Assembly: GCA_902787185.1 (NCBI GenBank)
Contig: CADAFP010000024.1
Coordinates: 1 to 62,662 of the forward strand
From: an uncultured Bacteroidales bacterium
GTDB taxonomy: Bacteria > Bacteroidota > Bacteroidia > Bacteroidales > Muribaculaceae
DNA: 62,662 nucleotides
Reading direction: 5' to 3'
The number at the start of each line of letters is the position of its first letter. Positions within the stretch are counted from its first letter, which is position 1. A model generated the notes under the pieces. The model saw only the letters and a program-made list of their open reading frames with translations. It did no database searches and had not been told where the DNA came from. A program made the position numbers and the translations under genes. This document shows positions 35,926 through 45,456 of the stretch, in pieces.

Positions 35926-36765
35926 ATGATGAAGCGCATTGAGCGGTGGTGGCAACGTTGGGGCGATGCCGTCAGGTTCCTTGGATGGGGCCTGATGGTG
36001 GCGTTGGTATGCTTTTTGCTGTATAGGGTGGCGATGAACAACAATGCTACACATCTGGTGCCCTTGAGCGAGGGCGCGCGCGACAGCCTGATGACCGTCG
36101 GCGTGCCCCGCAGCATGAGCGACACGCTGCTGAACTATGGCGAAGCCTTCGCCGTACACTTTAACAGCACTTTGGGCATCGCCAACTGTGCCGCCTATGA
36201 GCTCGTTAACAACGAGCTAAACGGGACGGCAGAGCGAGCTGGAGAGTTCATGCAGGACCCTGATGTGAAGGGATGCCCGTCACCGCAGGACTATGCGGGC
36301 AGCGGCATGGACCGCGGGCATCTGGTGCCTGCCGGAGACCTGAAGTGGAACCCGCAAGCCATGCGCCAGTCGTTCCTGCTGACCAACGTGTGCCCGATGC
36401 ACAAGGCGCTGAACGAGGGCGGCTGGGCCAAACTGGAGGAGAAGGTGCGCGAATGGACGGCACGCGACAGCGCCCTGCTGGTGTTCACCGGGCCTGTCGT
36501 GAGCGAGGGAGACACGACGCTGGCCAGTGGGCGCGTGACCGTGCCGAGTGCCTACTACAAGGTCATCATGGCACCCTGTGTGAGACCGATGCGGGCCATC
36601 GCGTTCATCTACCCGAACGGGCACAGCGGAGGACGGCTGCGGCAGTATGCCGTGAGCATTGACGAGGTGGAACGCCGCACGGGGCTGGACTTCTTCCCTA
36701 CCCTGCCCCAAAAGGAACAACAGCGGCTGGAGAGCGTGGTCAACCTGGACACGTGGACGAATTAG
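35926..36765 (+). CDS. DNA/RNA non-specific endonuclease, copy 1 (NUC1 family)
   Basis: 279 residues. One N-terminal membrane segment (FLGWGLMVALVCFLLYRVAM, about residues 18-37) anchors or exports the enzyme. The catalytic domain shows the full DRGH motif (SGMDRGHLVPAGDLKWN, about residue 126), the metal-binding Asn in FLLTNVCPM (about 149) and the Glu in GWAKLEEKV. VFTGPVV and SAYYKVIM complete the beta-beta-alpha-metal fold. It would cut DNA and RNA in the periplasm or outside. First of three consecutive paralogues; copies 2 and 3 have S and T in place of the motif's Asp. Confidence 0.9.
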   Translation: MMKRIERWWQRWGDAVRFLGWGLMVALVCFLLYRVAMNNNATHLVPLSEGARDSLMTVGVPRSMSDTLLNYGEAFAVHFNSTLGIANCAAYELVNNELNGTAERAGEFMQDPDVKGCPSPQDYAGSGMDRGHLVPAGDLKWNPQAMRQSFLLTNVCPMHKALNEGGWAKLEEKVREWTARDSALLVFTGPVVSEGDTTLASGRVTVPSAYYKVIMAPCVRPMRAIAFIYPNGHSGGRLRQYAVSIDEVERRTGLDFFPTLPQKEQQRLESVVNLDTWTN

Positions 36766-36795
36766 GAGTTAGGAATTAGGAGTTAGGAGTTATTT
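36763..36795. repeat. short tandem repeat (GAATTAGGAGTTAG type)
   Basis: Alternating GAATTAGGA and GTTAGGA units directly at the end of endonuclease copy 1; similar to the tract at 18530. Confidence 0.65.
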
Positions 36796-36801
36796 GACTG
36801 A

Positions 36802-37749
36802 ATGATTATATTTTTGACAATGAGGAGAGTAGTGAAGATTTGGGTGCTGGTTGCAGCGATGGTGATGGGCGGTGCATTGCCGCCGCAGGTGATGGGCGAT
36901 AACAGCATTACCACCCAGTGGTCGGCTCAGGCTAAGTCCAAAAAGAAAAATAAGAAAAATAAGAAAAAGAAAAAACACGCCAAATCCGTCAAGCAGTCTG
37001 CCATTTCTCCACTGGTGAGTGTTCCCACCATCGGCAAGGCGACGGGCACTACCGTAAAGCCGCAGCAGAACACCAATGCGCTACTGGCGGTAAACATCCC
37101 TAAAGGGGTGTCGAACCAGGTCTTGAACTACCAGACCATCCGAGTGAACTTCAATCCGACATTACGGATTCCCAACTGTGTTGCTTATGAGTTGACGGCG
37201 ACGATGGTCGATATGGCCGACGCTCCAGGGCACGAGAACCGCAAGAACTACAACTATGCCCGTGACAACAGCGTCAAGACTTGCCCCGAGAACTGGGAAT
37301 ACCGTGGTAGCGGCTACAGCCGTGGCCACATGGCTCCCGCGATGGATATGCGTTGGGACAAGACGGCGATGACACAGTGCTTCTACATGACCAACATGTG
37401 CCCGCAGGACACCAAACTCAACAACGACCACTGGCGCGTGCTGGAAGAGAAGGTGCACCGCTGGGCCAAACGCGACAAGCGACTGATGGTCTTTACAGGT
37501 CCCATCATGGGCAAGAATCCCAAGATGATTGGCAAAGACAAACAGAATATCGCCGTTCCTGAGGCTTTCTTCAAGGTGCTGTATGCGCCCGACAAGGGGC
37601 GCTCCATCGCCTTCATCTATGAGAACAAGCCGTGTCCTGGCGGCATCAGCAAGCGTGCCGTCACTGTTGCCGAGGTCGAGCGCCGCACGGGCCTCACCTT
37701 TTCCAGCGCCATGCCCAAGCGCCAGTGTAAAATTGAGGACTGGGAATAA
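36802..37749 (+). CDS. DNA/RNA non-specific endonuclease, copy 2 (NUC1 family)
   Basis: 315 residues; ATG 36820 (MRRVVKIWVLVAAMVMG) is the more likely start and gives a signal-like segment. A strikingly basic stretch follows (KSKKKNKKNKKKKKHAKS, about residues 46-63), then a linker. The nuclease domain keeps SRGHMAPAMDMRWDK, FYMTNMCPQ and VLEEKVHRW, VFTGPIMG, so the His, Asn and Glu of the active site are present; the motif's first residue is Ser rather than Asp. The Lys-rich stretch could bind nucleic acid or an acidic surface. More similar to copy 3 than to copy 1. Confidence 0.88.
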   Translation: MIIFLTMRRVVKIWVLVAAMVMGGALPPQVMGDNSITTQWSAQAKSKKKNKKNKKKKKHAKSVKQSAISPLVSVPTIGKATGTTVKPQQNTNALLAVNIPKGVSNQVLNYQTIRVNFNPTLRIPNCVAYELTATMVDMADAPGHENRKNYNYARDNSVKTCPENWEYRGSGYSRGHMAPAMDMRWDKTAMTQCFYMTNMCPQDTKLNNDHWRVLEEKVHRWAKRDKRLMVFTGPIMGKNPKMIGKDKQNIAVPEAFFKVLYAPDKGRSIAFIYENKPCPGGISKRAVTVAEVERRTGLTFSSAMPKRQCKIEDWE

Positions 37750-37773
37750 ACTCCGCTTCGTTCTTAATTGAAC

Positions 37774-37804
37774 GTTGCAGATACCGAGTTTTTTAGTATC
37801 TTTG
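37774..37804 (+). promoter_or_regulatory. promoter of endonuclease copy 3
   Basis: GTTG (37774-37777), 19 bp, TATCTTTG (37797-37804), 22 bp before ATG 37827. It would also transcribe mnmE. Confidence 0.6.
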
Positions 37805-37826
37805 TCGGCGAGTAATACTGACAAAG

Positions 37827-38726
37827 ATGAAGAAGAAACAGAAAAAGAATCTATATTTTGCACTGCTGGCAGTGTTGCTGGCGTTGGCCGGGTATCAGAG
37901 TTACCAGAAGAATGGTTTCTACAAGAGTGCCTATAATGACGAGTTACCTGCTGAACAGACTACGACTCAACAGCAAGATGGTCAGGAGGGCAAGGAATAC
38001 CAATCCACAGGCGACCAGTCGCTGCTTGACGTTAAACTGCCCGAGCGGCTTGACAATGAGACGGTGCACTACAAGGCTATCACGGTATATTTCAACAAGT
38101 ATTACCGTGTGCCCAACTGTGTGGCCTATGAGCTGACCAGCACCATGACGGCCATGGCCGACTCGCGTGACGCCGAAAACCGCGCCGACTACAAGTTTGA
38201 ACGCGACCACAACGTGAAGGGTTGCCCCGACTGGTGGGACTACAAAGACAGCGGCTACACGCGCGGACACATGGCTCCGGCAATGGATATGCGCTGGAAC
38301 AAGACCGCCATGGAGCAGTGCTTCCTGATGACGAACATCTGTCCCCAGCTCGACGAGATGAATGACGGCGAGTGGCGCCACGTCGAGGAGGCGGTGCACA
38401 AGTGGTCGAGAACCGCCAAGAGGCTGATCGTGTTCACAGGTCCCATCTTGACCAACGACATGGAACGCATCGGCAAGCATAACGACATTGCCGTGCCAAA
38501 GAGTTTCTTCAAGGTCGTGTATTCTCCCGAACAAAACCGCGCCATCGCCTTTGTGATGGAGAACAAGAAGATGCCCAACAGCTGGACCAACTATGCCACC
38601 ACCATCGACAAGGTGGAGGCGCTGACGGGCTATGACTTCCTCACCTCACTCGAGGACAAGGTAGAGGACGTCATCGAGAGTAAAGAGAACATCAAGAACT
38701 GGCCCGCATACTATCCCCGCCGATGA
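37827..38726 (+). CDS. DNA/RNA non-specific endonuclease, copy 3 (NUC1 family)
   Basis: 299 residues. After MKKKQKKN comes a membrane/signal segment (LYFALLAVLLALAGYQSY). Catalytic region: TRGHMAPAMDMRWNK, FLMTNICPQ, HVEEAVHKW, VFTGPILT, FFKVVYSPE. Active-site His, Asn and Glu are kept; Thr replaces the motif's Asp. The stop codon overlaps the mnmE start (ATGA, 38723-38726), so mnmE is translationally coupled to this nuclease. It has its own promoter at 37774-37804. Confidence 0.9.
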   Translation: MKKKQKKNLYFALLAVLLALAGYQSYQKNGFYKSAYNDELPAEQTTTQQQDGQEGKEYQSTGDQSLLDVKLPERLDNETVHYKAITVYFNKYYRVPNCVAYELTSTMTAMADSRDAENRADYKFERDHNVKGCPDWWDYKDSGYTRGHMAPAMDMRWNKTAMEQCFLMTNICPQLDEMNDGEWRHVEEAVHKWSRTAKRLIVFTGPILTNDMERIGKHNDIAVPKSFFKVVYSPEQNRAIAFVMENKKMPNSWTNYATTIDKVEALTGYDFLTSLEDKVEDVIESKENIKNWPAYYPRR

Positions 38727-40498: not shown

Positions 40499-42682
40499 TT
40501 ACGAACATTCATCATCTTCCCCACTTGATCTGTTTTCAGGTAAAGCATCTTCCATGAGACGATCGATGAATGCTTTGTTCCTTAATGAAGCACGCTCTCG
40601 TAGCACAGAAAATTTAAGAACCTCCATATATAAAGTACCATCAATGCCTGCCCCACTATCATCCGGTATCGTTTTCTTTGGCCTAAAAAGATAATCAAGA
40701 TTAGGTGCAGTTTGAAAATCACCATCAACTGCTCGCACATCACGTTTTTCCATGCTTTCACCTATAAGATAACCATAGAAAGTAATAAACCTAAATTGAG
40801 GTTTTGTGAAGTTCCTGAGGAAATAGGCATACTTTGTTATCTGGGTAATGCAGTCAGCGACATTTACCTTTGGATTTTTAAACTCTATAATTACACATTT
40901 ACCCTCTGCAGGAAATAGTAATACATCAGTTCGCATATCTGCTCTCTTCTCTCCTAACGAATTTAGATAGCGCTCTTCCTCCTCGTCAATGATATCTTTG
41001 AAGATACGTTCACCATCCAATTTCAATTGCGATAGTTTGCTTTCTGAAGAACCCGTAAAATACATATATTCTTCATTTATAAGCCACATGTCGCTTGAAA
41101 GAGGATTATCACTATGCTGCTTAAATATGAGATTATGAAGCAATTTCTCGTCCTGATTTCTTTTATCATCTTGACAATCTGCAAGACGATCCAGTATTTT
41201 ACCCATTAGTTCGATTACCATCTTGCGTCGAGCAACATATTTAGACAATGTTGCGCGATTCTGAACGGGCAACGATTCAACTAAATTATCAACAATATTA
41301 GAGAGTTGATCTTGATAATCATCAGTTGCCGGATTCAACTCATTTAACTTCTGTATGCTCTTCTCGTAGGCAGCACTTTGTTTCGCCATTACCTTTGCAT
41401 CATAGGTATATGCTTTTTTGAACACATCATCAATGGAATCACTCAATGATACCTCTAATAATGCATCTTCGGAAAGCAGATAATCTTTCTTCAACTGCTC
41501 AAGCCTTTCCTGAAACTCTTCATTCTGAGATAATATTTCAGAATAGATCTCGCTTGCTTTTGCATTCACTCCATCCTGGATATCATTAAGCACAATCTGA
41601 TGCTCAATATATCCTTGAGCTTTGGCTACTTTTTTGAATTCTGTCTTATCTAATATCTCAATATTGCCACGCTCATCTCCTTCCAAATCATCAAAATAAT
41701 CACTTGAAAGCAGGAATAAATACCTGTAATTATCTAATTCTGCATTAGGATCTATACATGTTAATTTTATCTTGGCATTATCGCAAATCTCTCCTTTACT
41801 AGCGATTTTTATCTCACTTGTTTGGAGCATATCTGCATTAATCTTATAGGGAAGTATCTTGATTGCTATATTCGTATCCTCTACCTTTTGGATTCTTTTC
41901 ATGTCATCTGATATCTTACAAAGAGGCACTGATATCAAAACATCAGTGCAAGTTGGATCTGGAATGTCATCAACTAGAATTGTATCACGATCTTTTACTT
42001 CACCACCAATCATATAAATAATGCTTATCAAAGGTAATGAATCCTTTCCATTACAAAAAGAAAGTAAATAGTGATTTATGAGTTCTTTCTTTATGTCGTC
42101 TGAACCTAATTTGGCATACTCTTTTGCATCACGTTCATTAGTGGGCAAATACATCTTGAGGGTAGTCTTAATCTCCTCATCACCTTCTACCACAGTTGGC
42201 TCTTCTATTTTATAGATAATTGTATTCTTATCTATGAATGGCCTTGTTCCGGAAATAACGAATCCTCGCTTCATCAATATGTCTCCTTCCTTATAGATAC
42301 TATCATATTGGGATAACTGAAAAGCGTGAATCATTTGAATTCGGCCAGAGCCTCTATTATTATAACCTTTGGTATCATCTTTAAAGACAACAAGTCGCTT
42401 GTAGTTATCTTCATCAAATCCTATACCATTGTCTTCGATGGTTAAGCTCGACAAATCTAAACTATTATCATCGGTCGATGAATTATAACTAAGTATGATA
42501 TTGATATAAGGAGAAAAATCATCTCCTCTTTTTATCCGCATCTTGATCGACTCTAGACTATTTGTGAAACCCTCAAAGAGTGGTTGCAGAATATTAGCAG
42601 ATTTTTTAATGCTTTTTAAGATGCCCGACCATTTCAAGTCATTGTACTTTTCGAACTTTGTTACATCATCAAATTTTATCAT
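40499..42682 (-). CDS. GHKL (Hsp90-like) ATPase fused to a PD-(D/E)XK nuclease domain, putative defence effector
   Basis: 727 residues. The ATPase N box is E37-GFT-N41, G1 is ED84-NG86-IG88-F, and a glycine lid NNRGSGRIQM follows (about residues 108-117), as in Hsp90, MutL and MORC proteins. A transducer-like region (to about 330) and a long coiled-coil (about 360-520) lead to a C-terminal domain with RTD586-VLLFP and VIIE600-F-K602-NPK, then a helix (ITQITKYAYFL): the D...EXK pattern of restriction-like nucleases. Such ATP-gated nucleases occur in phage defence. Last gene of a three-gene operon, 12 bp after the DUF3307 gene. AT-rich unlike mnmE. The match to a named defence system is open. 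Confidence 0.8.
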   Translation of the reverse strand: MIKFDDVTKFEKYNDLKWSGILKSIKKSANILQPLFEGFTNSLESIKMRIKRGDDFSPYINIILSYNSSTDDNSLDLSSLTIEDNGIGFDEDNYKRLVVFKDDTKGYNNRGSGRIQMIHAFQLSQYDSIYKEGDILMKRGFVISGTRPFIDKNTIIYKIEEPTVVEGDEEIKTTLKMYLPTNERDAKEYAKLGSDDIKKELINHYLLSFCNGKDSLPLISIIYMIGGEVKDRDTILVDDIPDPTCTDVLISVPLCKISDDMKRIQKVEDTNIAIKILPYKINADMLQTSEIKIASKGEICDNAKIKLTCIDPNAELDNYRYLFLLSSDYFDDLEGDERGNIEILDKTEFKKVAKAQGYIEHQIVLNDIQDGVNAKASEIYSEILSQNEEFQERLEQLKKDYLLSEDALLEVSLSDSIDDVFKKAYTYDAKVMAKQSAAYEKSIQKLNELNPATDDYQDQLSNIVDNLVESLPVQNRATLSKYVARRKMVIELMGKILDRLADCQDDKRNQDEKLLHNLIFKQHSDNPLSSDMWLINEEYMYFTGSSESKLSQLKLDGERIFKDIIDEEEERYLNSLGEKRADMRTDVLLFPAEGKCVIIEFKNPKVNVADCITQITKYAYFLRNFTKPQFRFITFYGYLIGESMEKRDVRAVDGDFQTAPNLDYLFRPKKTIPDDSGAGIDGTLYMEVLKFSVLRERASLRNKAFIDRLMEDALPENRSSGEDDECS

Positions 42683-42694
42683 TGATTTCCTCTT

Positions 42695-43465
42695 TTAAAA
42701 TTTCACAACAATTATACCCAGAAAAAAAGCTATTGCCAACGATACCAAAGAACCCGCCAAGACATACTCAGACTTCTCACTCTCAGAGTTTGCTTGGCTA
42801 AATCGCAAAATAGACTTTGCAGTAAGCAAGAAGCCTATTGCTTCGTATTGAGATAGAATAACAAACAAGAGAATCAATACACGCTCTATATTCCCTATCA
42901 GCGCGCCTGAATGAAAGTTTCCATGATCTTCTTTTACGACCTTTACCTTACATGCTTTAAGAACTAGTAATACTAGAATATTGGCAGGTTTCAAAACCAA
43001 AGCCATAGCTAATATCGTCTTTATCCATAGTGGATGCTGCAAGTATAAAGACGTCACCCAGTTAAACTGACTCCAATCATTACCAACCTGGAACCAAAGG
43101 TTCACAATGCTAACAATAATACCTATATGAAGCAACTGGTCAACTACAAATAACGGTAAATCATATTTTGCATTTTTCCCATCAGTTACATTAAGTGTGG
43201 TAATATTTACAAGATTGTATTTAACCTGCAAATAAGATTTCATGCTGTCGATTGCAAAATGAGATATTATCAACAAAAGAATTATCCACCAAGCGGCACA
43301 ATCCATAACAGCAAAACAGGAAAGAATTCCAATAATTATAGCATGGACAATCATTCCCCACCCACTCCAATTATTCTTCACTTTGCTCCTACACATGCAG
43401 CTATTCTGCAAATAGAAGTCGCCTACAAAATGAGCCACCAATAAGTTTATTATCATATCTATCAT
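42695..43465 (-). CDS. DUF3307 family membrane protein
   Basis: 256 residues with about seven membrane segments. The beginning LLVAHFVGDFYLQ and the segment IISHFAIDSMK with its acidic and His residues are the DUF3307 signature (AHxxxDFxxQ and SHxxxD). A soluble loop (LVNITTLNVTDGKNAKYDLP) and VDQLLHIGIIV follow; the second half is polytopic. Function of the family is unknown. It overlaps the SatD-like gene by 4 bp (ATGA) and precedes the ATPase-nuclease gene by 12 bp. Confidence 0.82.
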   Translation of the reverse strand: MIDMIINLLVAHFVGDFYLQNSCMCRSKVKNNWSGWGMIVHAIIIGILSCFAVMDCAAWWIILLLIISHFAIDSMKSYLQVKYNLVNITTLNVTDGKNAKYDLPLFVVDQLLHIGIIVSIVNLWFQVGNDWSQFNWVTSLYLQHPLWIKTILAMALVLKPANILVLLVLKACKVKVVKEDHGNFHSGALIGNIERVLILLFVILSQYEAIGFLLTAKSILRFSQANSESEKSEYVLAGSLVSLAIAFFLGIIVVKF

Positions 43466-44112
43466 AATTCTCTCACGATTTCTTTATAATACTCTATAAC
43501 CTGTTCAATAGAACTCCAACAGAGCGCATTAAGATTCTGATTAACCCCCGATGGGGTAATACCCATGTTCTTTGCAATTATATTCGCATCCTTATAGAGG
43601 ATTTTCTCATAAAGTGTGCGACATCTACGAGCTGTAGTATTATTTACTAAGTCATTGATTAGCGAAAACATGATTCTCAAAATTTGTTCTTGCTTTCCAT
43701 CAGCCATGGAGATAGTAAACGAATACTTCGATCTACCCACAAGGCTATCTAGAGCTCTTCCAGATCGATAAATGGCATCACCATCCATCATATCGCGTTC
43801 TCTGCTTACAGTCTTCATATCACCTAAGCCAATTGCAATCCTAAGGCCATATTTGCTAAAACTATCTGTAGCATCACTCTTTGGTATAAATGACTTTACC
43901 CCTGTTTTCAGTACAAGTGCTACTTCAAGGGCATTCTCTGGCGATCTCAGAATGCATTCTATTGTGTCACCTCTTACAATTCGTCCCCAAAAGCCCATAT
44001 ATCTATCTTCAAGAAGAGCTAGGCACTTCTTGATATGCTCGTTAAGTCCTATCATAGACTCTATTGATAATGAAGTAGAAGAAACTACATCTGCTGATAT
44101 TGTTGCGTACAT
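43462..44112 (-). CDS. SatD-family protein: cyclase-like N-terminal fold plus C-terminal HTH
   Basis: 216 residues. The N-terminal region resembles nucleotide cyclase/GGDEF-type folds: ISADVVSSTSLS has the first-strand Asp position of class III cyclases, GRIVRGDTIECIL the second metal site region, LRIAIGLGD and DGDAIYRSGRALDSL the later conserved blocks. The C-terminus (AKNMGITPSGVNQNLNALCW) is a helix-turn-helix. SatD proteins commonly lie next to DUF3307 genes and are named after streptococcal acid tolerance; molecular function is unknown. Here it starts the operon and probably regulates it through the palindromes at 44142-44190. Catalytic cyclase activity is only an inference. Confidence 0.78.
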   Translation of the reverse strand: MYATISADVVSSTSLSIESMIGLNEHIKKCLALLEDRYMGFWGRIVRGDTIECILRSPENALEVALVLKTGVKSFIPKSDATDSFSKYGLRIAIGLGDMKTVSRERDMMDGDAIYRSGRALDSLVGRSKYSFTISMADGKQEQILRIMFSLINDLVNNTTARRCRTLYEKILYKDANIIAKNMGITPSGVNQNLNALCWSSIEQVIEYYKEIVREL

Positions 44113-44141
44113 ATTCTTATAAGTATTATTTCAAATGTTAA

Positions 44142-44190
44142 AACAAGTGCTAGAACTTGTTTTTTGACAATACAAGTTCCAGAGCTTGTA
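44142..44190. promoter_or_regulatory. two tandem palindromic operator-like sites
   Basis: Site 1 AACAAGTGCTAGAACTTGTT (44142-44161) is self-complementary at 18 of 20 positions. Site 2 TACAAGTTCCAGAGCTTGTA (44171-44190) is self-complementary at 16 of 20. They share ACAAG-N8-CTTGT and lie 29 bp centre to centre, 30-78 bp upstream of the SatD-like gene. Likely binding sites for its HTH domain (autoregulation). A TAACATTTG sequence on the minus strand near 44132 may be a weak -7 element. Confidence 0.6.
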
Positions 44191-44787
44191 ATTAGGCTTA
44201 GAGCCAATGTTGCTAATAGGGCCATACATCGCCTTATTGCAGTGGATTAACTTGATATTTTGATTTGCAAATATACTGAATAAATCCGACAAACAAGAAG
44301 AAATTGAGAAATACTATTGATTTGAGGCCATGTTTTTGATTACCGTCATTAATTTATTGAATAAACAATTGAAGGCAAAACTGACATCACAAAAATGAAA
44401 AAAACCATCTTATAAGATGTTCTTGACGGCAGTTGGACAATATGCTTATATGCGAGGTTACGGTGTAATGATTGTTCTGATAGGTTACCTAAAAGACTAA
44501 TATTAGAATAAATCATGACTCAACTGCTTTTTCTATTCTATTATGTTATATACGAACTACAACTGATTCACCAAATGTACATTCTGTTGTATCTACCGAC
44601 CGTTAAACTAAGTCAAAAGTGTTAAAATGAAGGGCGTTGAAATAAGTACTTTAAAGCTCTACCATATTTCTACCGTTTGGTAAATAAATAGCTAATAATC
44701 AATAAATTACATCTTCTATATCGGAAAAATATATCCCACATGTGGGAGAATGCCACAAAAAAGGAACCGACAAAAGAGAAAAAGACA
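44191..44787. other. AT-rich intergenic region, no gene seen
   Basis: No credible coding frame on either strand. A perfect 12-bp palindrome CCCACATGTGGG lies at 44735-44746 and contains the upstream ATG (44740) of the following gene. No tRNA, integrase or attachment site is visible. Confidence 0.5.
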
Positions 44788-45456
44788 ATGAAGACAAAAG
44801 AAGAAATTATCGAATTTTTGAAAAAACCAGAAGTGGAGAGTTTTGGAGAAATCGCTGAAGAATTACTTCATCATCTTGTAATCAAAAAGCAAGAACAGAA
44901 GCTTGATGAGGATATCAAGGAGGTTACTTATAATCTTGCTGAAATAGAGTTCTATTATTATGGTGAGGAACACGAAGACCGGCATACATACATTCGTATG
45001 GCCAATGCCGGAACGTGGTTCTTTCATGGTAGTGGAATGGATCTGGCTTTTCAAACAATAGAAGATAAAGATAAGGAAACGCTTACCTCTTTTGGCGGGA
45101 TTCTGATACGCTCTATCATCAGACATGAGGGGAATGATAAGAACGATAAAACCATCAGTGGCCCTATTCGATGTATGGAAGAACTGATCAACCACAATGC
45201 TGGTGTCCTTGAATGGGATATGGTTGAGCAAAGCGGTAATAGGGATAAAGAAATTGCTACTCCAATAGAACGAACAGGCTTAACCCCCTTTGCTGCAGAA
45301 AAAGCCAATAAAGAAAAGGATTATTCAAAAAGACAATACAAATACTATCTCAAAAATAAACCTTGGCAAAAATCAATTGTACGTTACAAGTACTATCCCA
45401 AACAAGAGCATCTGGCAATAGTAATGAAAGAAGATAAAATAGATTATAAGATTTAA
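44788..45456 (+). CDS. soluble protein of unknown function in the AT-rich island
   Basis: 222 residues from ATG 44788, which has a purine-rich stretch just upstream; ATG 44740 in the same frame adds a Lys-rich leader and is possible. I do not recognise the family. A helical, charged N-terminus (EEIIEFLKKPEVESFGEIAEELLHHL) is followed by a beta-rich core with striking blocks HTYIRMANAGTWFFHGSGMDLAF and TSFGGILIRSIIRH, and a basic C-terminal part (KRQYKYYLKNKPW, SIVRYKYYPKQEHLA). No signal or membrane segment. AT-rich like the neighbouring operon and divergent from it, so it may be part of the same acquired island. Confidence 0.65.
   Translation: MKTKEEIIEFLKKPEVESFGEIAEELLHHLVIKKQEQKLDEDIKEVTYNLAEIEFYYYGEEHEDRHTYIRMANAGTWFFHGSGMDLAFQTIEDKDKETLTSFGGILIRSIIRHEGNDKNDKTISGPIRCMEELINHNAGVLEWDMVEQSGNRDKEIATPIERTGLTPFAAEKANKEKDYSKRQYKYYLKNKPWQKSIVRYKYYPKQEHLAIVMKEDKIDYKI

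Follow-up and report, generated by a model that had tools for sequence, protein, structure and literature searches.

The window analysed here is a stretch of 62,662 nucleotides from an uncultured Bacteroidales bacterium (contig CADAFP010000024.1), and beside its mnmE gene lie three closely spaced minus-strand genes for a SatD-like protein, a DUF3307 membrane protein and a GHKL ATPase with nuclease-type motifs. A reading made from the letters alone (hereafter the sequence-only reading) had taken these genes for a possible new ATP-gated nuclease system. Our analysis does not sustain this view: the object of interest is the SatD-DUF3307 pair itself, and the nuclease fits a known kind, paraMORC3, and is probably a passenger. 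The genes and the two palindromes upstream of them are the following:

40499-42682, minus strand, 727 aa: ATPase of the GHKL type that fits paraMORC3, with a putative C-terminal restriction-endonuclease-type domain
42695-43465, minus strand, 256 aa: DUF3307 membrane protein, proposed effector
43462-44112, minus strand, 216 aa: SatD-like gene (predicted cyclase/palm-fold domain and C-terminal HTH-type region, for helix-turn-helix)
44143-44160: palindrome 1, ACAAG-N8-CTTGT, upstream of the SatD-like gene, proposed operator
44172-44189: palindrome 2, ACAAG-N8-CTTGT, 29 bp from palindrome 1, start to start

The layout that the sequence-only reading had described is confirmed throughout. The SatD-like and DUF3307 genes overlap by 4 bp, the gap between DUF3307 and the ATPase gene is 12 bp, and the three genes (40499-44112) have a G+C content of 36.1%, compared with 62.0% for mnmE and 51.5% for the whole window. 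Among 119 overlapping segments of equal length just 2 have lower values, and both of these possibly overlap the operon itself. Upstream of the start codon of the SatD-like gene, the palindromes begin at distances of 31 and 60 bp; the two matches to ACAAG-N8-CTTGT compare with 0.08 expected, and none of 100 shuffles gave two. A tighter pattern common to both palindromes occurs in two copies in each of two further loci, L002 and L003, and is absent elsewhere among 157 loci, except for two loci in the window's own genome.

The AlphaFold2 model of the SatD-like protein (predicted local distance difference test score, pLDDT, 80.7; predicted template modelling score 0.80) comprises a predicted class III cyclase/palm-fold domain (residues 1 to about 137), followed by a C-terminal helical, HTH-type region. 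The model resembles class III cyclases, GGDEF domains and Cas10 (Foldseek, VIA), with the cUMP synthase 7r65 among the 11 best Foldseek matches, and a profile comparison matched the protein to the cyclase 3mr7 (E 3.8e-4). The cyclase-like fold suspected in the sequence-only reading is thus borne out at the level of the fold. No mCpol structure stands among the listed fold matches, an absence that proves nothing. Two aspartates, D8 (44089-44091) and D49 (43966-43968), are each kept in 50 of 50 aligned sequences; their assignment as metal-type residues comes from the 3mr7 profile alignment and the topology of the model, not from a residue-level superposition. The protein is therefore predicted to combine the class III cyclase fold with two metal-binding aspartates. 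A literature search found no cyclase assignment for SatD in print, and among the papers listed as naming both 'satd' and 'cyclase' none concerned this protein by its title.

We call the protein 'SatD-like' because it yields no match itself to the SatD model PF16264 at E<=1 (cut-off 29 bits), while 15 of 37 aligned relatives match that model at E<=0.1 (best 4.4e-14). Its likeness to SatD and the streptococcal sat operon lies in these relatives and in a Fusobacterium member beside DUF3307, and the difference lies in the window protein, which misses the model. A PF16264 scan of the window's own genome gave no matches and was uninformative, as the controls were equally silent. The C-terminal HTH of the sequence-only reading holds for the family, 19 of 37 members of which match Sigma70_r4_2 (sigma-70 region 4) at E<=0.1, but not for the window protein, in which Pfam gave no significant HTH match.

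The partner protein is assigned to DUF3307 by Pfam PF11750 (75.5 bits, cut-off 23; E 4.9e-21) and has at least five hydrophobic segments in a crude hydropathy scan. Residues H12, D16, F17, Q20, F106, Q110, H113, G187, I190, G191, E194 and R195 are invariant in 26 DUF3307 sequences, as are K217, R221, E233, Y234, G238 and S242. Profile-profile comparison gave no support to a YdjM-type membrane metal hydrolase, an idea prompted by the repeated H-xxx-D pattern (hhalign probability 1.5% and 0.5%). PADLOC matched neither the SatD-like nor the DUF3307 protein, and a literature search for DUF3307 returned a mention in a Ralstonia jumbo phage table.

The two genes are found together with great regularity. 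When the search was anchored on SatD, DUF3307 adjoined it in 29 of 30 loci, the own genome included. L031 was the lone exception, and L073, which covers more of that contig, has a DUF3307-type fragment cut by the contig end. Larger SatD stretches, largely from the same genomes, have DUF3307 adjacent in 34 of 36 cases, the exceptions being the L073 fragment and L080. Anchoring on DUF3307 gave a SatD-like frame within about 1.5 kb in all 30 best loci. The SatD gene nearly always overlaps or directly precedes the DUF3307 gene. Within the order, a SatD-like protein occurs in 60 of 393 genomes (E<=0.001, own genome included); the pair is also present in Pseudomonadota, in Fusobacterium (PF16264 match of SatD at E 3.2e-14, DUF3307 adjacent) and, by annotation, on a haloarchaeal plasmid. 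No conserved third gene was seen in these loci, the next same-direction gene varying from one to the other. Two genes directly follow the pair in L047 (10727-12425, plus strand), the second with a D...E-x-K-like stretch and thus a possible nuclease with no Pfam match. Aerococcus tenax (L193, 3097-6709) has a ribonuclease/barstar pair, then a SatD-like gene and then a DUF975 membrane protein, which is possibly a swapped partner of the SatD-like protein.

The pair is also carried, without the ATPase, by prophage-type contigs and plasmids. Eight distinct IMG/VR contigs encode DUF3307, seven of them with a SatD-like neighbour; L107, the remaining one, yielded no SatD and has an apparently truncated DUF3307. 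One contig (L099/L100) shows by inspection a lambdoid early region with repressor and replication-type genes. PHROGs matches comprise terminase genes on L105, a tail fibre on L101, an integrase on L102 and a virion-type protein on L104, and L103, L106 and L107 encode proteins that by eye resemble those of L105. Of the DUF3307 proteins, those of L099 and L105 were scanned and both belong to PHROG 2470, 'moron, membrane protein'; their SatD-like neighbours gave no PHROG match. With an Enterobacter DUF3307 query, 12 plasmid records were matched, six of them 3,770-bp plasmids (one from E. coli, five from Klebsiella). On two of these (L095, L098) the pair is the cargo besides replication, Rop and mobilisation genes (plus one tiny hypothetical gene in L095), as far as the incomplete gene table of the plasmid collection tells. 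pEC34A, a natural E. coli plasmid of 3.8 kb, bears the pair. It was also seen on a Klebsiella plasmid of 4.4 kb and on one of 10.3 kb from Pseudomonas. A Sphingomonas insulae plasmid (L093, 1-10193) has it in a defence-rich region of about 10 kb, placed between an AAA+helicase pair (Gabija-like by eye), a TIR gene and an annotated Pycsar effector, along with genes for an E2-associated protein and a cyclase. Phage records yielded no match for the window ATPase, one SatD or two DUF3307 proteins, a third DUF3307 query giving two weak matches, both to records of one phage; viral contigs gave none for the window ATPase, two SatD queries and one SatD alignment.

Good support exists for the predicted SatD fold with its metal-type residues, for the tight association of the two genes, for the partner being a membrane protein and for carriage by mobile elements. 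Tentatively, and short of calling it probable, we favour a two-gene controller-effector module directed against phages, in which SatD restrains DUF3307 and behind which an unrelated third gene is placed. SatD would bind or convert a nucleotide and in that state keep the DUF3307 membrane protein inactive; an invader that disturbs the nucleotide pool or SatD itself would release DUF3307, which would then damage the membrane and halt the infected cell before the phage spreads. The C-terminal HTH of SatD may repress the operon via the tandem palindrome. We infer the restraint of DUF3307 by SatD, and the best lead to it comes from Streptococcus pyogenes. There, according to PMC11323703, satD (present in 178 of 249 genomes) is the sole accessory gene whose essentiality score in transposon screens falls into the top quarter, and to be essential when present is expected of a gene that restrains a harmful partner.

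The closest worked-out logic, by analogy, is that of Panoptes OptS-OptE (PMC12657218): its palm-type synthase keeps a membrane effector under constant restraint, which ends when the signal is removed by a phage protein. The main text of that paper contains neither 'SatD' nor 'DUF'. The likeness would consist in a two-gene operon, a palm-type synthase with a putative active-site Asp pair, a membrane effector and a restraint held by the synthase, the last being proposed here. OptS, however, is an mCpol and OptE an S-2TM-beta protein, whereas the locus studied here has a SatD-like protein with an HTH-type region and DUF3307; the window partner matches DUF3307 alone in Pfam and not S-2TM-beta. From Pycsar the SatD-like protein differs by its HTH-type C-terminus and by lacking the usual Asn, and no Pycsar-type effector was found beside its gene, the partner being DUF3307 in Pfam and nothing in PADLOC. 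What it may share with Pycsar, a cyclase with an effector (PMC11224242), is the class III cyclase fold, the 7r65 match and a possible effector that is a membrane protein.

Two Pfam families of which little is understood behave as halves of one unit, and in one half the predicted fold is that of a nucleotide cyclase whose metal residues are retained. Should the restraint model be true, a widespread second-messenger guard has been overlooked and an 'essential accessory' gene gains a mechanism. A bolder version, which strikes us as somewhat unlikely, holds that SatD-DUF3307 is an undescribed and very widespread two-gene immune guard of bacteria and archaea, in which a cyclase-fold enzyme, joined to an HTH region that binds its own operator, makes a nucleotide that keeps a polytopic membrane effector closed, and which phages and plasmids carry against rivals. 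Streptococcal satD, named for acid tolerance, would then be a restrainer, which would explain its accessory-yet-essential status. As pEC34A carries the pair, the question is directly testable in E. coli K-12.

Several observations weigh against the controller-effector module. Class III nucleotide cyclases use an Asn/Arg transition-state pair; the SatD-like sequences have Tyr or variable residues at the Asn position and keep the Arg in just 40 of 50, so that catalysis is unproven and at most predicted. L080 is a SatD locus without DUF3307, the Aerococcus gene precedes DUF975 rather than DUF3307, and in 5,426 complete E. coli genomes neither the Enterobacter pair, searched in distant mode, nor the pEC34A pair, searched in near mode, found a match. 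We know of no phage-defence assay of any SatD-DUF3307 member. The lead from S. pyogenes presumes a DUF3307 neighbour of satD, and the essentiality of satD could be a polar effect on nearby genes. Nor were the surroundings of the genomic pairs enriched for defence: 51 PADLOC families were hit by 126 neighbour proteins and 68 by 109 control proteins, the counts being families hit and not proteins. The neighbours were 126 of 130 proteins from 33 loci on genome contigs of the order (three very long proteins and a DUF3307 fragment were dropped); for the controls, 15 regions elsewhere in some of these genomes were used.

These neighbourhoods suit a housekeeping stress switch, in which SatD is an HTH regulator with a cyclase-like domain that does no more than sense a nucleotide, while DUF3307 serves in transport or membrane maintenance when the cell meets acid, osmotic or envelope stress, with no role against phages. 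Many neighbours of genomic pairs are housekeeping genes, two Salinivibrio pairs sit among metabolic genes, and DUF3307 occurs in 77 of 296 genomes of the phylum sample, being common in some genera (at least 12 genomes of genus g212). The S. mutans SatCDE/Ffh/YlxM cluster is moreover tied to acid tolerance and up with fructose in the parts of PMC12077213 drawn on here. We regard this switch as a serious rival because the neighbours are not defence-rich, DUF3307 is common in some genera and the link to acid tolerance exists. Still, it strikes us as doubtful, as the pair is found on contigs of prophage type, on plasmids of 3.8 kb and in a plasmid region rich in defence genes, and the SatD gene is patchily spread within the order.

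A plain toxin-antitoxin module appears unlikely. SatD would here be a protein antitoxin and autorepressor that neutralises a DUF3307 toxin by contact, without a nucleotide signal, thereby maintaining plasmids and prophages. The tandem palindrome, the 4-bp gene overlap, the pair's place as cargo of small plasmids and prophage-type contigs, the 'essential when present' status of satD and the Aerococcus gene beside the ribonuclease/barstar pair would all agree with it, but a metal-type Asp pair kept in every aligned sequence within a cyclase fold exceeds the needs of a protein antitoxin, and copies are common in some genera, unlike typical mobile toxin-antitoxin modules.

The third gene calls for a separate treatment. 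Its motifs are placed as follows:

40877-40927, minus strand: nuclease motif D586...E600-F-K602
42572-42574, minus strand: N-box E37

The ATPase and nuclease residues named in the sequence-only reading proved invariant in 10 aligned sequences (the window protein and nine others with 19-96% identity to it), that is E37, N41, D84, G86 and G88, joined by G111 and G113 (GHKL N-, G1- and G2-box), as well as D586, E600, F601 and K602. HATPase_c is matched at E 0.12 and HSDR_N at E 0.0012, below the cut-off; the homologue in L067 lies just above it. An AlphaFold model from four sequences reached a pLDDT of 40.6, too low to be of use. Nuclease-type motifs at the C-terminus are thus borne out, and together with the weak HSDR_N match, past the cut-off in the homologue only, they suggest a nuclease fold.

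The paraMORC3 family was reportedly described by Iyer, Abhiman and Aravind in 2008. As portrayed in parts of PMC2292703, its members combine a GHKL ATPase with a C-terminal E-D-ExK restriction-type nuclease, occur in restriction contexts or stand alone, and are prevalent in Bacteroidetes and Proteobacteria. The window ATPase shares the GHKL motifs and a C-terminal E-D-ExK-type motif, and since motifs and contexts match, it fits this known kind. A difference is that it sits behind SatD-DUF3307 in an operon without a DNA-modification gene; the restriction-modification neighbourhood found in some paraMORC3 members is absent here. Such an enzyme may act in restriction by linking the cleavage of DNA to a clamp that closes with ATP. 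Eight bacteroidal ATPase loci lie outside the cassette described below (L004, L005, L006, L065-L069), and modification or restriction genes adjoin the ATPase in four of them: C5 methylase, AAA_5 and an LlaJI-type protein in L004, C5 methylase, AAA_5 and DUF2357/PDDEXK_7 in L005, type I hsdM-hsdS ahead of the ATPase with an R-type helicase behind it in L065, and DndE-HerA-type and AAA_23 proteins beside an ATPase gene in pieces in L067. L006 is cut by the contig end, and the neighbours in L066, L068 and L069 fall outside the scan. Genes of the paraMORC3 type are truncated or split in L067 (8571-13663) and L068 (8829-10918). Distant homologues occur in eight plasmid records, among them one without annotation and three annotated ones that are taken up below.

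The three genes belong to a cassette that is delimited by comparison with L002:

40322-44717: cassette of about 4.4 kb, 94% identical to L002 3968-8365 (blastn)
44597-44728: intergenic repeat of about 130 bp at the upstream edge of the cassette

L002 and L003 each show about 95% identity to the window and, over the cassette, 99.8% identity to one another; their proteins have 94-96% identity to those of the window, with gene order and close spacing kept, and apart from copies of the edge repeats the flanks compared do not match the window's (blastn). Congeners have other genes in the slot between mnmE and agmatine deiminase or beside the deiminase: AAA/DUF4143 in L168, ATPase_2/DUF234 in L170, an N6 methylase in L171 and GAP1-N1 in L172, mnmE being matched in just L168 and L170 among the five congener stretches. 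Because the cassette is shared at 94% while the flanks differ, and because the congener slot holds other genes, the cassette looks like an accessory insertion.

All three genes together were seen solely in these near-identical copies, and this bears on the view, now highly improbable, that a SatD signal, a DUF3307 membrane step and the nuclease act jointly as a single defence system. Although L002 and L003 preserve the gene order and the short distances between genes, L002 alone among 36 SatD stretches has the ATPase adjoining the pair, L003 being its near-identical twin, so the conserved three-gene unit of the sequence-only reading did not hold up. The ATPase was not found in the other 35 stretches, some of which are cut by contig ends, genome G257 has SatD and ATPase far apart, and the ATPase is far rarer than the SatD-like protein (6 versus 60 of 393 genomes of the order, own genome included) and has other partners elsewhere. 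We infer that it is a separate passenger module, unneeded by the SatD-DUF3307 pair, whose gene may have been captured under the promoter of the pair. That the nuclease is the sole working restriction gene and SatD-DUF3307 merely an unlinked, promoter-providing neighbour is barely credible, since this would leave the independent spread and conservation of the pair unexplained, even though three annotated alphaproteobacterial plasmids have an ATPase homologue with no annotated restriction gene adjacent and stand-alone cases appear in the same parts of PMC2292703.

The repeat at the upstream edge has further copies in L002 (830-961, 3968-4084), L003 and L172 (two) and also occurs beside agmatine deiminase genes of congeners; it is single-copy in the window's own assembly. 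Integron- or transposon-like ends were rejected, as the edge repeats are single-copy in that assembly and the right one belongs to the chromosomal site in congeners. Near the agmatine deiminase site, L172 (13332-19000, minus strand) has a GAP1-N1 protein and, by eye, GTPase-type genes. The low G+C of the operon continues into the neighbouring plus-strand gene 44740-45456 (36.8%, function unassigned), look-alikes of which adjoin agmatine deiminase in L170, L171 and L172. Directly before mnmE, three consecutive apparent paralogues of 279, 315 and 299 aa (35926-38726, plus strand) share a DRGH/SRGH/TRGH-type motif, which we take to be that of DNA/RNA non-specific endonucleases.

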